DNA of 64,000 bases from a virus. A program made the translations under genes and the position numbers. Of this stretch, positions 9,560 to 63,372 are shown one piece after another. The notes below the pieces were generated by a model. It saw nothing but the letters and a program-made list of their open reading frames with translations, searched no databases and was not told the origin of the DNA. The number at the start of each line of letters is the position of its first letter. Position 1 is the first letter of the stretch. Where the stretch lies: IMG/VR virus record IMGVR_UViG_3300034170_000023, positions 19,208 to 83,207 of that record. One strand, written 5' to 3'.

Positions 9560-9740
9560 TACTACTCTCCTTAACCCCGTTAACACTCTTCAAATATTCA
9601 TCAACCTCTTTCCAACTAATATTTGGAAAGTAGACGTACATCATTCCACTTTTAGCTAGATTGTCATAGTCTTCTTTCACCTTAATCAAGTCTTTCCAGT
9701 CTAGTTTACCACGTTCTGTTGGGACTGTTGCATGGATCAT
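9552..9740 (-). CDS. Small protein between mazG-like gene and thyX
   Basis: 62 residues ending KSVNGVKESSNV; not recognised. It overlaps its neighbours at both ends, as usual in this operon. Confidence 0.55.
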   Translation of the reverse strand: MIHATVPTERGKLDWKDLIKVKEDYDNLAKSGMMYVYFPNISWKEVDEYLKSVNGVKESSNV

Positions 9741-16732: not shown

Positions 16733-16900
16733 TTATCGAATAACTTTCTGTTTGTTGAGTGTCCAGACATTCTGGATAATCTGAGACTTTACACCAACCT
16801 CGGTAAGCATTCGCTTGAAGTTGCGTGCCTCTTCACGAGTAGTAAAGCCACCAGTTGACCCATCTACATCTAGTACGACGTATTCAGTCTTAGTAGTCAC
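16733..16900 (-). CDS. Small alpha/beta protein (GTG start)
   Basis: 55 residues. The GTG is preceded by TAAGGAGAG with ideal spacing. VVLDVDGSTGGFTTREEARN suggests a small beta-hairpin and helix. Unknown. Confidence 0.55.
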   Translation of the reverse strand: MTTKTEYVVLDVDGSTGGFTTREEARNFKRMLTEVGVKSQIIQNVWTLNKQKVIR

Positions 16901-54017: not shown

Positions 54018-54749
54018 TTGATTATTGAAGATGGTGAACGGACTTTCTGGGTAGATACTGATACTGGAGAGATTGAGGCTGAGCAAGTAAACTTTGTAAC
54101 CACTAATAAAAAGAGAAAGAAAGAAGATAAATACTATTCTGATTCCCTACTCAGCACTACAACAGCCCGTAGTAAAGATGATATTGAGGCTTTCATTAAG
54201 GCAACTATAGACAAGCGTAAACTAATCACACTAAACAATGCACGTCTGTACCATGATGTAAACTGTGGTGAAGTGATGAGGAACGGAACAAAGAATAACT
54301 TTACAGTGCCAGCATACAATATAATGGAAAAGCTAATTAATGCCTTAACACTAAACAACTGTATTATTTGTACACCAGAAGATTTAGGTGTAATCTTGGA
54401 TTGTGATCCAAAGCATAATAAACGTACATTAGAATCTTGTAAGTCTTTGGTTAGGTATCAAGGTACTAGAGACATGCAACGTGGTTTTGTTAAGTTGTTT
54501 ATCAACCCTGCATTCGGTTGGAAGGGTGATTGTTCTATAGCTTACCGAAATCAACAGCGTGCAACAGGTGATTGGTATAGTGGTTTGAATACAGATTTAA
54601 AAGAGTTTGATGTAGGTGCATCTGGAGATATGAAGTTCAGCCCGACATTAGATAAATGGTTACTTGAATTGACAAGCAGAGCTAAACCCTTCAGCGAAGA
54701 TGCAGACTTATTTCGTGCATCATTTTTTAGTATTAAAGGTATGATTTAA
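54018..54749 (+). CDS. Winged-helix protein, RepL/replication-initiator-like
   Basis: 243 residues, TTG start behind GGAG. Residues about 110-145 (CTPEDLGVILDCDPKHNKRT) look like a helix-turn-helix, followed by a wing and FINPAFGWKGDCSIAYRNQQ. An INPxxxWKGD block after a winged helix is reminiscent of plasmid RepL-type initiators. The dyad over its own promoter fits an autoregulated DNA-binding protein. Initiator or transcription regulator cannot be separated by eye. Confidence 0.55.
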   Translation: MIIEDGERTFWVDTDTGEIEAEQVNFVTTNKKRKKEDKYYSDSLLSTTTARSKDDIEAFIKATIDKRKLITLNNARLYHDVNCGEVMRNGTKNNFTVPAYNIMEKLINALTLNNCIICTPEDLGVILDCDPKHNKRTLESCKSLVRYQGTRDMQRGFVKLFINPAFGWKGDCSIAYRNQQRATGDWYSGLNTDLKEFDVGASGDMKFSPTLDKWLLELTSRAKPFSEDADLFRASFFSIKGMI

Positions 54750-55732
54750 TGAAGTATGAGGGATCTATCACAGAGTTAAGACATGATAATGAGCTATCAG
54801 ATAAAGGTCAGTATAAATATGTTGGGAGTTTCCAAGAGAAAGGCGTAGTTAGGATATTCATCTTTCTTTGTACTGTTTGCGAGAAAGATAAAGAGTTGTT
54901 TGGAGATGGCCTATTCTGGACAAGAAAGCAAGACTTTAAGAATAATCAACTCTTTTGTGGTTGTGCTAAAAAGGTGACTTGGACACTAGAGCAGTCAGAA
55001 ACTAAGTCAATAAGGGCCGCGTCAGAAGCTGGTAATACATTTGAAGGTATAATAGAGCCATATATTGGTGGCTCAAGTAGGTGTAACCTCTCTTGTGCTG
55101 TATGTAACCATAAATGGACATCTAAGCTATCTAACTTATGGGCCCTTAAGAGGGGTTGTCCAAGTTGTAGGACTATAAAATTTTTAACTGCTGCTAAATT
55201 TGCAAATTTAAAACCGGATTCAATTATCACTAAGTCTTTTATGGAAACAGGAGCCTACCACCCACACACCATATTTACAAAGATTGACAGGAAGGCTAAA
55301 AATTCTAAAACTAATTATTGGAGTGTGTATTGTCCAATATGTGAAGAGACGTCTGAGTGTCAGCAAGGTCACTTACTAAAAGGCAGCATTTCGTGTGGGT
55401 GCTCTATGCACAACCAAATGGAGTCTTATATTAATCTAGTGAAAGATGGAGATGAAGTCGTAGCTATAAAATTTGGCATATCAAAAGATTCCCATAAGAG
55501 ACTAGTATCTCACAACTATAATACAACGTATAATGTTGAAATGCTGAGTATTTTTAAATATGATAAAAGCATAGATTGTAAAGCAGCAGAGCGGGAGTGT
55601 CTAGATACACTAGCGTGCGGTATAATTGAAAAAGAAATGTTTCATGGCGGCTGGACCGAAACAACATACCCATACAATATAGATGTTGTGTCACGTATAT
55701 TTAAGAAGTTTGGAGGTGTGCGTATATTTTAG
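54749..55732 (+). CDS. Zinc-ribbon plus GIY-YIG-like endonuclease
   Basis: 327 residues, start overlapping the previous stop (TAATG). Several CxxC pairs (CTVCEKD, FCGCAKK, CAVCNHKW, CPSCRTIK, CPICEET, CGCSM) form repeated zinc ribbons over residues 40-225. Residues about 235-310 resemble a GIY-YIG/T5orf172-type nuclease (VAIKFGISKDSHKRLVSH, AAERECLDTL, GGWTETTY). Homing endonuclease or phage-exclusion nuclease; probably mobile. Confidence 0.65.
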   Translation: MKYEGSITELRHDNELSDKGQYKYVGSFQEKGVVRIFIFLCTVCEKDKELFGDGLFWTRKQDFKNNQLFCGCAKKVTWTLEQSETKSIRAASEAGNTFEGIIEPYIGGSSRCNLSCAVCNHKWTSKLSNLWALKRGCPSCRTIKFLTAAKFANLKPDSIITKSFMETGAYHPHTIFTKIDRKAKNSKTNYWSVYCPICEETSECQQGHLLKGSISCGCSMHNQMESYINLVKDGDEVVAIKFGISKDSHKRLVSHNYNTTYNVEMLSIFKYDKSIDCKAAERECLDTLACGIIEKEMFHGGWTETTYPYNIDVVSRIFKKFGGVRIF

Positions 55733-56026: not shown

Positions 56027-56700
56027 TAGGTATATCTAGTTGAAAGGCTGGATATACCTAATCAATCGAAGTACACATGTACCCCGGCAGATAGTGTATG
56101 GCTTCATTGCACGTAGGGTGAGACGTTGGTTACTGGCAATTGAATGCTTTACAGGTCACTTATTAATAAATTAAAACTCACTCTGGTTAATCTTAAGTGA
56201 GTTAATGTTTATTGTAGTGAGTTTTAAAGTGACACGGATACTACGTTCATACGCGGCGTAGTACGTTGACAAGTAGGCTCAGTCAATTCAACTTGGATGC
56301 TAGATTAACAAGGGTGGACTACGAGAGCCATACAAATCTAGTAGCGTCTACGAAAAGACAGGGTGTAAAATAGAAGTGTACCTTGGGCTAAATGCTCAGC
56401 ACTCCTAACAACAAAGCTCCTATAAACTCCCTCTCCTTATAAAGCTTTGTTCTCCTCGCAGGCTTATGACAACTGCTGCTTTCCTCCTTCTCAGTAGTTG
56501 TCTCCTTAAATAGTCCTGCATTAAAGACCCTTTATTTCCTCTCCTTAGTAGAGTGGTCTTTGGCATCTTATACGTGTTTACTCTCCTATCACGTATAAGA
56601 TGTATTTCTTAAGAATCTTCCTTCTGTTGAATATTGTACGGAATTTGGTATTTAGCCAATATAGTCCTACGAGGATTCTTAAGAAATGCATTTAATTTAA
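56026..56700 (+). ncRNA. Long structured RNA or leader with CUCUCCUU loop hairpins
   Basis: No credible ORF for about 700 bases. In order: TTAGGTATATC / GATATACCTAA (56026-56061); GTCACTT / AAGTGAC and AAAACTCACT / AGTGAGTTTT long-range helices with a competing AACTCACT / AGTGAGTT hairpin (56155-56233); TACTACG / CGTAGTA (near 56239); CTAGATT / AATCTAG (near 56300-56341); GTCT / AGAC; then five hairpins: AACAAAGCT stem (56410-56451), GACAACTGCTG stem (56468-56502), AAAGACC stem (56523-56561), CATCTTATACGTG 13-bp stem (56564-56602) and TTTCTTAAGAATC 13-bp stem (56605-56686). Loops and linkers repeat CTCTCCTT. Either an independent RNA or the 5' leader of the fibre operon. Confidence 0.65.
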
Positions 56701-56722
56701 AATAACAATGTTTGAGGTAATT

Positions 56723-57055
56723 ATGTCACTAATTATGAAGCGTGGTGATAGCGTAAATTACCTCGCAGTTATTCCAGATACATTTCCAGATGGCTACTTC
56801 ACAAATTGGTCAGTAGCAAGTCAGATCCGTACAGCTCAATATGACATCTTAGTCACTTCTCTAACGTGTACATGGGCAGACCCTCTCACTACACGTAACC
56901 TTCTAGTCACAGAGATTGTGACAACAGATTGGAAACTTGGTAAGGCTCTTATTGATATTCAATTCGTAAGAGACAGTGATGGCTTCACTCTTAGTACAAA
57001 TACTCTAGAGATTGAGATTGTACGTGACATTACACATCCAGATACAGTGGTGTAA
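56723..57055 (+). CDS. Tail or baseplate protein, first of the fibre operon
   Basis: 110 residues from MSLIMKRGDSVNYLAVIPD, behind GAGG; ATG-like 56708 would precede the ribosome site. Beta-rich (LLVTEIVTTDWKLGKALID), typical of small phage virion proteins placed before fibres. Role inferred from context. Confidence 0.65.
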   Translation: MSLIMKRGDSVNYLAVIPDTFPDGYFTNWSVASQIRTAQYDILVTSLTCTWADPLTTRNLLVTEIVTTDWKLGKALIDIQFVRDSDGFTLSTNTLEIEIVRDITHPDTVV

Positions 57056-60712: not shown

Positions 60713-60769
60713 TGAGAGCGAAAAGGCTGGCCAGCCCTGATGATTGCCGATACAATCGCCTAGCTCTCA
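60713..60769 (+). other. Three-way-junction-like element before the HNH gene
   Basis: Outer stem TGAGAGC / GCTCTCA (60713-60719, 60763-60769) encloses GGCT-GGCC-AGCC (60725-60736) and GATTG-CCGATA-CAATC (60742-60757). Could be a processing or regulatory element. Confidence 0.5.
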
Positions 60770-60797
60770 CCTAATTTATGTCTTATCGGAGATTGAA

Positions 60798-61634
60798 ATG
60801 ATTAAAAACAGTATTAAAGATTATGCTGGTCAAACCAATAAGTTCCTGACAATTATTGAACGTCATGAACCAACTGAGATGGATACAGCAGACACAGCAC
60901 TTTGGAAAGCTAAATGTATTTGTGGTGTTGAGTGTGTCATTGCTCACAAGTCCTTCCGTAAGAGAACAACTTGTGGTTGTGGCATCAGAAGTACTAAATA
61001 CCAAGCTGGAAATAAGTATGGATTACTAACTATTGTAAGCGAAGGCCCTAAAGCAGAGTATGCCAACAAGCGTCAAGTCTGGTGTAAATGTGACTGCGGG
61101 AATGAAAATCTTACGCTAGTTTCCACAAATAATTTGGTTTCTGGCAACACTTCAAGTTGTGGATGTGTTGGTGAAGAAAGTCGAAAGACTCACGGCATGT
61201 CAAACACACGAACTTACCAGATTCATGAAGGAATGATTCGTCGTTGCAAACCCCATCTAGCAGATGACTTCCCATATCACGCGGGAAAAGGAATTAAGGT
61301 TTGTGAAGAATGGGAAGTATTTGAAAAGTTCTACGAAGACATGGGCGAATGTCCTGATGGACTAAGCCTCGACCGGATTGATGTGCATGGTAACTACTGC
61401 AAAGAAAATTGCCGATGGGCAACTAATAGTGTTCAAGGCTATAACAAAGGTTTAGATCCAAATAACACTTCTGGTAAGTCTGGCGTAAGTTGGTATACAC
61501 AGAGTGAGAAATGGTCTGCTGAAATCCATGTAGAAAACAGACATATCCGATTAGGTATGTTCTCTAACTTTGATGACGCAGTTAAAGCTCGCGAAGAAGC
61601 AGAACTTAAATACTACGGATGGAATAAACAATGA
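60798..61634 (+). CDS. Free-standing HNH homing endonuclease with zinc ribbons and AP2 domain
   Basis: 278 residues, ATG behind GGAG. Cys pairs (CICG, CGCG, CKCDCG, CGCVG) in the first half, an HNH variant near residue 190 (LDRIDVHGNYCKENCRWAT) and a C-terminal AP2-like domain (GVSWYTQSEKWSAEIHVE). Its stop overlaps the terminase ATG (ATGA). The nearby terminase intron has no ORF, so this enzyme may supply its mobility in trans. Confidence 0.82.
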   Translation: MIKNSIKDYAGQTNKFLTIIERHEPTEMDTADTALWKAKCICGVECVIAHKSFRKRTTCGCGIRSTKYQAGNKYGLLTIVSEGPKAEYANKRQVWCKCDCGNENLTLVSTNNLVSGNTSSCGCVGEESRKTHGMSNTRTYQIHEGMIRRCKPHLADDFPYHAGKGIKVCEEWEVFEKFYEDMGECPDGLSLDRIDVHGNYCKENCRWATNSVQGYNKGLDPNNTSGKSGVSWYTQSEKWSAEIHVENRHIRLGMFSNFDDAVKAREEAELKYYGWNKQ

Positions 61635-63372
61635 GTAATAAAGAGAAGGAGGTCCGCATTGGGCCTTCGTCCACTTTCCAAGCAAAATACCTCAACTCAG
61701 ATGCTCAGATCATGCTGGTTGGTGGAGCGGCTTAACCTAGATCGGGTCGCTATAAACTCCTCTAATTCAGGGAACGCTAAGGGAGAAATCCTATGCCAAT
61801 CCTGAGCGAAGCCCTTAAAAGGGAACGTGCAGAGACTAGTCGAAAGACGTAGGATGCAAGCGCATTCGAAACGGGGGGCAACTTTGTAAGTTGAAGATAT
61901 AGTCCAGTTACACTAGAAATAGTGGAAAAGAAGTAGCGTTCTTATAATTATCGGGATCATCAAAAAGTTACGTCGGGTTGATGAGGCATCTACGCTTCGT
62001 CCACGACAGCAACTATAAAGCATACTGCATTCGTAAAAACTCCAGTGCCATTATGGCTTCTGGTGGTTTGTTCTGGGAAGCTGTGAAGTTATACACACAG
62101 TTTGAACCGAACATTAAAGTTAAACTTAAAGATCAAAAGATTGTTTTTCCTTCTGGCGCTGAAATTAGCTTCTCTCACTATGAGAATGACACAGCAGCTA
62201 AGAAGTATCAGGGTATTCAAATCTCAAATATTTTTTATGATGAGGTTACGCACGCCGATAACGAAGAACAACTATGGTGGTTATGGTCACGTCTTCGTTC
62301 TGATGCAGAAAACGTACACTCAATGTGGTGGTCATGTAACCCAGATAATGCTAGTTGGGTTCTTAAGTATGCAATGTGGTGGTTGTTCCCAGAAGGTCAC
62401 GAATTAGCTGGTCGTCCAGATCCAGAAAAGAATGGCAAGATTCGGTATCTTCTTCGGATTGCTGGTGAGCTGGTTTGGGGCGATACAAGAGAAGAATTGA
62501 TTGAGAAGTATGGTAATCATAAACTCTCTGTTGAACATGAAGACCAAGTAAAACCAATTAGTTTTCAAGGGTTATTTGGCACCATTGATGACAATCCCGA
62601 TTTGCGGCGATCTAACCCACTCTACAAATCAAATCTTCAGGCGCTCCCAAAACTAGACCGAGAAAGATTACTTTTTGGGAACTGGTTTGCAAGGCCAGAT
62701 GGCAGTTCGTATTACGATAGAACAAGTTGTAAAGAACTTACTAGCATTCCAAGTGAAAGAGATTTCACAAAGATAGTTAGGGTTTTCGACGTAGCGGGCA
62801 CAATTCCACATGACGGTAACAGATCGCCAGATTACTTTGCAAGCGTCAAGATGGGCAAGTTAGTATCTGGAAATTATGTCATCCTAGATATAGTCCGTAC
62901 ACGGATTACCTTTGGTAGTTGGTTGGAACATATCTTAGGTCTTGCAAGAGAAGATGGCCCTAATGTGGATATCGTTCTTGGTGAAGATCCTAACCCAGCA
63001 GCCAAGGCAGCGATCAACTTGCTTGCAAGAGAGATTATTGAAGCGGGCTTTGTTTGTAAAACCAAACGTGCATCTGCTGGTAAACTTGATTCTTTCAGAC
63101 CCTTCGCAGCAGCAGCAGAATTAGGTGCTGTAGATATTGTTAAGAACTGTGGGAATGACTTATGGAATAAGATTGTTAGTAATAATGACTTCTTCTATAA
63201 AGAGTTGGAAAACTTTGATGGTACTCGAAAGGGTGGCGAACTAGGCCATGATGATATGGTCGACTGTTGTTCTCTAGCATTTATGTACCTAGCCCAGAAA
63301 GTTCACATCGGAAACTTCCTCCCCGGCATCCAATCAATTGACCTCTCACAAAAGAACGCATTCAAATTCTAA
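61631..63372 (+). CDS. terL: Large terminase subunit, split by a group I intron
   Basis: Exon 1 is 61631-61732 (34 codons, ends MLVGGAA) and exon 2 is 61954-63372 (starts GSSKSYVG). Joined they give 506 residues and restore Walker A as GGAAGSSKS. Walker B is IFYDEVTHA. The C-terminal RNase H-like nuclease has VFDVAGT, GEDPNPAAK and HDDMVDCCSL acidic residues. It powers packaging and cuts concatemers. The HNH gene overlaps its start. Splicing is required for any ATPase function. Confidence 0.92.
61733..61953 (+). ncRNA. ORF-less group I intron (IA-like) in terL
   Basis: 221 nt. P1 is visible: exon AGCGGCU (61726-61732) pairs with GGUCGCU (61745-61751), leaving the U.G pair at the 5' splice site. 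Exon 2 GATC can pair with 61740-61743 as P10. Core elements in order: P (AATTCAGGGAACGC, 61764-), Q (AATCCTGAGCGAAGCCC, 61798-), R (GTGCAGAGACTA, 61827-61838), S (AAGATATAGTCC, 61894-61905). The last base is the omega G (61953). Confidence 0.93.

Follow-up and report, generated by a model that had tools for sequence, protein, structure and literature searches.

What does a phage gain from a row of hairpins whose loops repeat the complement of its own ribosome-binding sites? The question is raised by an array in the 64,000-nucleotide stretch of DNA analysed here, called the window (G000:C1:19208-83207 of an 83,207-base virus record). A small Cys-rich gene flanks the array on the left, and a run of + strand late genes begins on its right. 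The phage carries genes for terminase, thyX and NAMPT. Its nearest named relatives by terminase are the Pseudomonas phages vB_PpS_SYP, vB_PsaM_M1 and phiPMW, with 49-52% identity, and its host is therefore presumably Pseudomonas-like. The original prediction had described loops and linkers of this kind at 56410-56686. Every one of them was found at its place, and the hairpins were recovered by refolding at 56410-56603. The locus contains the following features, where numbers beginning with L denote related phage contigs.

55817..55993, + strand: small Cys-rich gene (zinc-ribbon-like), left flank of the RNA locus; homologue in L004 and L018
56025..56132, + strand: conserved upstream RNA module 1, with a GAUAGUGUAUGG core and the enclosing helix UAAUCAAU/...GUUGGUUA
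56231..56360, + strand: conserved upstream RNA module 2, about 130 nt, with the hairpin ACUACGUUCAUACGCGGCGUAGU, ACUACGUUCAUACGCGGCGUAGUACGUUGAC / ACUACGAGAG...UCUACGAA
56410..56451, + strand: array hairpin 1, loop ACUCCCUCUCC at 56426-56436; L003 and L026 have the same stem
56451..56457, + strand: linker between hairpins 1 and 2, containing UCUCC
56458..56519, + strand: array hairpin 2, apical loop CUUUCCUCCUUCU at 56479-56491; a second UCUCC at 56501 in the 3' internal loop
56522..56562, + strand: array hairpin 3, loop UCCUCUCCUU at 56537-56546
56563..56603, + strand: array hairpin 4, loop UUUACUCUCCUAU at 56577-56589
56604..56687, + strand: long, A/U-rich closing hairpin of the UUUCUUAAG... 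type, with UUCCUUC at 56618 and a conserved UUGAAUAUUGUA at 56627-56638
56708..57055, + strand: first gene downstream of the array, some of whose homologues in cultured phages are annotated as tail or tail-fibre proteins

The motif UCUCC starts at positions 56432, 56451 (linker), 56501 (linker), 56540 and 56582, with CCUCC at 56483 and UUCCUUC at 56618. Compared with shuffled versions of itself, the segment 56400-56700 folds with z = -11.5 on the + strand and z = -4.8 on the - strand. In L003 and L026, both sides of the inner stem of hairpin 2 are altered while its loop is unaltered, hairpin 3 has a different stem around an identical loop, and hairpin 4 has kept its loop motif in a stem that is almost wholly different. 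The closing hairpin, possibly a processing site, is homologous in L003, L004, L016, L018 and L026, while a second type (UUUCUAAAUAAUCUUGUUGUU) occurs in other contigs.

When the array region was compared by Blast with 50,697 phage records, DNA similarity revealed no homologue of the array, which is what freely changing stems would lead one to expect; relatives were therefore reached via other sequence. The queries were module 1 (70 nt), module 2, the protein encoded downstream, a hairpin that precedes the array, and the closing hairpin, but not the loop motif; the closing hairpin alone held a stretch resembling it (TCCTTC), and all of its array matches had already been reached by other queries. 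Three to four hairpins with C/U loops were identified at the matching locus in 18 contigs, which are the window and 17 other phage contigs (L003, L026, which is the same contig as L006, L004, L009, L010, L011, L012, L013, L016, L018, L019, L020, L021, L022, L028, L032 and L033). Inspection of the candidate matches L008, L025, L027 and L030 showed them to be without the array, and neither M1 nor the contig behind L005, which have the modules in common, yielded an array. The cultured phages SYP (OQ183418, 81734, - strand) and phiPMW (KU862660, 43469) contain one CCCUCUCCU hairpin at the matching place, where the tRNA/late region begins. In both, the hairpin follows a sigma70-like promoter (TTGACA-17-TATAAT in SYP) at a distance of 50-80 nt and lies before the tRNA genes. 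These promoter-like sites suggest that the two single hairpins are made by the host polymerase.

What the arrays share is the loop motif. Among the 55 hairpin loops in the 18 contigs, CUCC is present in 54, UCUCC in 47, CUCUCC in 41 and the full CCUCUCCU in 20, while CCUCC occurs in only 12. The loops consist of 97% pyrimidines, with 51% C and almost no G, and when letters were shuffled among these pyrimidine-rich loops, UCUCC turned up in 10.6 loops on average and never in more than 21, as compared with the 47 observed. The stems are hypervariable and without common sequence, yet they still pair: all Watson-Crick types as well as G-U occur at stem positions across the 55 hairpins, and of the 15 pairs that differ between the window and L003, six are altered on both sides with pairing kept. 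Loops that drift while stems are kept had been named beforehand as the pattern that would speak against a role for the loops, and the reverse is seen, since the loops retain their motif as the stems diverge between phages. The simpler statement that loops evolve more slowly than stems is untrue position by position in the comparison of close pairs, and was dropped. What is retained is the pyrimidine motif, while individual letters move about against a pyrimidine background. Outside the arrays, a scan of the ten full genomes on both strands (878 kb) yielded no more than 23 hairpins that have CUCUCC in the loop, and these were scattered.

To which strand the RNA belongs is indicated by two tests. 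When the stems are defined by the + fold, the 43 distinct stems hold 30 G-U against seven A-C oppositions, while the symmetric test, in which the - fold definition is included, is less decisive (eight G-U against seven A-C). Stability favours the + fold in 13 of the 18 arrays, the genes on both sides of the array run on the + strand, and the promoter-like sites are mostly on that strand as well. A + strand RNA is thereby favoured. The original prediction had offered one reading for each strand, and only the anti-Shine-Dalgarno reading on the + strand is supported in outline. In the other, a - strand RNA would sponge CsrA/RsmA through AGGA loops in the manner of CsrB/RsmZ. Nearly every loop does show GGA in its reverse complement, and the - strand also folds better than its shuffles, but sponges of this type present GGA in the loops of the transcribed strand, whereas the GGA of the array lies on the strand that the G-U pairs and the gene direction disfavour. 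We consider a CsrA sponge to be improbable in the extreme.

The G-U pairs and the divergence of the stems also indicate that the array acts as RNA. This bears on the suggestion that the structure has no base-pairing role and is either a C-rich site for the loading of Rho or a cruciform or recombination element at the level of DNA. While the composition of the loops, rich in C and nearly free of G, and the mosaic arrangement of the surrounding structural genes would suit such elements, a rut site should be unstructured and the array is strongly folded, and the link to the ribosome-binding sites of the late genes, described below, would be left unexplained. We regard this explanation as very improbable.

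The loop motif corresponds to the ribosome-binding sites of the phages themselves. In seven array genomes with 1,076 ORFs, AGGAGA is the commonest hexamer at positions -18 to -3 before the starts, where it occurs 128 times, as compared with five times at -60 to -45 and with 23 occurrences of AGGAGG. Its exact complement is UCUCCU. Within the window, TAAGGAGAG occurs five times against 0.8 expected; two of these are the complement of loops and the other three, at 9565 (-), 16907 (-) and 29394 (+), agree with its earlier assignment to the ribosome-binding sites of thyX and the genes at 16733 and 29408, the first being that of thyX. GGAGA and GGAGG precede starts 206 and 59 times in the phages, and 19 and 22 times in two Pseudomonas genomes, sampled as twenty 20-kb stretches that were located with the help of a 16S pattern in the genome contigs; as phage and host differ in base composition, this contrast supports but does not prove that phage mRNAs are the targets. 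Sites of the type AGGAGAGG-ATG were found in seven of the ten array phages in differing numbers and places, which bears on the idea of a single shared target. Duplex energies of CCUCUCCU with initiation regions showed modest differences overall and no difference in the phage of the window.

These counts also bear on the possibility that the RNA is a decoy for host shut-off, which would block Shine-Dalgarno sites of the host early in infection. Anti-Shine-Dalgarno loops can match many host messages, and the strong sigma70-like promoters ahead of the SYP and phiPMW hairpins point to the host RNA polymerase. However, the sampled Pseudomonas genes, which may not be those of the true host, have no preference for GGAGA over GGAGG, AGGAGAGG is barely enriched before ATG in Pseudomonas (31 against 16 in the control, in 18 Mb), and the best match to the loops is provided by the early genes of the phage. 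A host decoy is thus quite improbable.

The late genes, here taken as the + strand genes downstream of the array, with early/middle and late labels inferred from strand and gene content, avoid the signal that the loops would recognize. In the ten array genomes, GGAGA precedes 17 of 320 late genes (5%) and 265 of 1141 non-late genes (23%; OR 5.4). Gene starts for these counts were called with a crude ORF picker; several k-mers were tried, as were several start pickers, and p-values at the gene level overstate independence. The eight phages without an array (M1, the contig of L005, SYP, phiPMW, phiK7A1, Ep020, PAK_P1 and Sf19) have GGAGA before 42 of 251 late genes (17%) and 158 of 970 non-late genes (16%; OR 0.97). 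Among them, SYP and phiPMW, with their single hairpins, do not avoid GGAGA in late genes, and in the control Sf19 the early and late genes differ to some extent without an array (0.23 and 0.10). The pattern was first seen in seven genomes, and three held-out validation genomes agree with it. At the level of families, the mean for GGAGA is 0.05 in late genes and 0.26 in others (permutation p<5e-5), and in families with at least four members it is 0.062 and 0.199 (p=0.005). Instead of GGAGA, the late genes of the array phages use AAGGAA, TAAGGA and AAAGGA.

The strictest test is the comparison of shared orthologues, which goes in the same direction with weak support. In orthologous families present in both groups, the late GGAGA frequency is 0.066 in array phages and 0.119 in non-array phages (p=0.08, a trend only), and the late-versus-early contrast gives p=0.01 for GGAGA and p=0.15 for AGGAGA. 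In the window's own phage the effect is weak (22% vs 9%). The association between the array and late avoidance is correlational. The array phages do not form one clade in the capsid or the terminase tree, and the terminase of G002, an array phage, groups with those of M1 and the L005 contig, both without the array. For the ten array genomes the two trees conflict, so that late genes appear to have been exchanged between array phages.

Since the loops mirror the ribosome-binding signal of the early genes and the late genes avoid this signal, the array RNA is probably a translation switch or insulator. On balance, we lean towards a multi-loop anti-Shine-Dalgarno RNA, a phage analogue of the alpha-r14 “cuckoo” sRNAs, which blocks early and middle mRNAs and from which the late genes are insulated. 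The locus would encode a structured + strand RNA whose hairpin loops display an anti-Shine-Dalgarno octamer (core CCUCUCCU / UCUCC) several times. These loops would pair in trans with AGGAGA-type sites and keep the 30S subunit off the mRNAs, the main targets being the early and middle messages of the phage itself. The late structural genes, transcribed downstream of the array, would carry the shifted sites UAAGGA and AAGGAA, which can pair with the 16S tail whereas their match to the loops is poor, and would therefore be insulated. We infer from the sequence features that the array is transcribed as a stable RNA, that its loops pair with mRNAs in vivo and repress them, and that it acts in the passage from early to late expression.

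Late avoidance could also have arisen in cis, since the late genes follow the array and may share a transcript with it; the cis and trans versions both require loops with anti-Shine-Dalgarno activity. For the array itself, neither a promoter nor a terminator could be identified consistently, although promoter-like sites are present upstream of it at varied distances in several phages, and no terminator was found between the array and the gene that follows. Such an arrangement, in which the array opens the late operon or its tRNA cluster, would also suit a cis leader of the late transcript, in which the loops bind an antiterminator or another RNA-binding factor and have their sequence fixed for protein contact, and protein recognition is likewise compatible with fixed loops on free stems. 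However, a protein site does not predict that the motif is the complement of the preferred Shine-Dalgarno site of the phage, that it also occurs in linkers, or that late genes avoid its complement, and we consider the protein-binding leader unlikely. More tentatively, the anti-Shine-Dalgarno array may be the early-to-late switch of a lytic phage at the level of translation, silencing the early and middle messages that start from AGGAGA together, while the late genes have co-evolved a shifted ribosome-binding code to escape, giving two translational classes. If the array works in this way, the division into early and late genes would lie in ribosome-binding sites and not in promoters, and one RNA would be linked to a genome-wide pattern of Shine-Dalgarno usage. 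The resulting rule is that gain or loss of the array should be accompanied by loss or gain of GGAGA in late genes.

The closest known systems are the alpha-r14 sRNAs of Rhizobiales (NfeR1, SmelA075 and SmelA099), which are built of three to four hairpins; their stems are hypervariable, and every loop shows the anti-Shine-Dalgarno motif CCUCCUCCC (PMC3927594, PMC10746234). They silence several mRNAs by redundant action of the motifs on translation initiation regions (PMC7143759). The phage array similarly has several hairpins with anti-Shine-Dalgarno loops (CUCC in 54/55) and hypervariable stems. It differs in that the loop is CCUCUCCU-like rather than the exact ultraconserved CCUCCUCCC, and in that it is encoded by a phage, in a late/tRNA locus with additional conserved modules. 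The alpha-r14 model (RF02344) scored 16.7 bits on the array, as compared with a gathering threshold of 58.8 (E 1.5), and gave no array match in 14 related loci. Since the loop letters differ and the covariance-model scores are far below threshold, the array is not a member of the alpha-r14 family. The original prediction had drawn a parallel to S. aureus RNAIII, but the alpha-r14 sRNAs are the more apt comparison because they have the same architecture.

Redundant C/U-rich loops also bind Shine-Dalgarno sites in the case of RNAIII, of RsaE, one of the UCCC-loop sRNAs, and of LhrC of Listeria, the last of which uses three CUCCC sites (PMC4132741). These RNAs are chromosomal and differ from the array in stems and host, and the LhrC model (RF00616) scored 22.8 bits against a gathering threshold of 110. 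CcsR1, a stress-induced RNA with a conserved CCUCCUCCC motif, has similar hairpins with CCUCC-type loops but differs in loop motif and genome (RF02791, 18.3 bits against 65.3). In phages P1 and P7, the c4 antisense RNA acts, probably by means of loops, on a ribosome-binding site of the phage and blocks it (review PMC12197685); unlike the array, it has one dedicated target, a role in lysogeny and no repeated identical loops. The lytic Pseudomonas phage PAK_P3 produces two abundant RNAs of about 100 nt, sRNA1 and sRNA2, one in the tRNA region and one matching tRNA TpsiC loops (PMC4933390). No anti-Shine-Dalgarno array has been described in PAK_P3. Searches against Rfam, at the gathering threshold and at E up to 10 for the locus and M1, and at the gathering threshold for 14 relatives, gave only tRNAs and group I introns above threshold. 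A large phage RNA of the GOLLD/ROOL type, considered for the adjacency to tRNA genes, had no Rfam match. Anti-Shine-Dalgarno sRNAs with multiple hairpins are already known from bacterial chromosomes; none was described for a lytic phage in the literature searched, which excluded most subscription papers, and the phage-encoded version appears to be new.

The elements next to the array have features of their own. Module 1, of about 70 nt (window 56059-56132, L002:2996-3071, L003, L004, L005 and L006), is often located just before tRNA genes; its helices change together between phages around the GAUAGUGUAUGG core, and it has no Rfam match. The block UGAAAGGCUGGA (window 56042-56052, L002:3072-3084) comes first and module 1 second in the window, whereas the order is the opposite in M1, L004 and L005, which gives the impression of a permuted RNA. 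Module 2 is also present in L005, L015, L017 and L018, and its copy in the window has no Rfam match. Immediately ahead of the array, L009, L010, L011, L012, L013, L016, L018, L020, L021, L022, L028, L032 and L033 have a hairpin that follows the pattern UUUCACC-[stem]-ACGAAGAUCAAAUYCUAGAAA-[stem']; its stems are unrelated and its internal sequence is conserved in part. No such hairpin was seen in the window. Farther downstream, a group I intron (93 bits) at 61644-61926 is located just before the frame of the terminase large subunit, with an endonuclease-like frame at 60744-61634 upstream of it, and L012 contains another such intron. A homing-endonuclease-like gene (phrog_681 endonuclease, phrog_559 HNH) at 54749-55732 adjoins the RNA locus.
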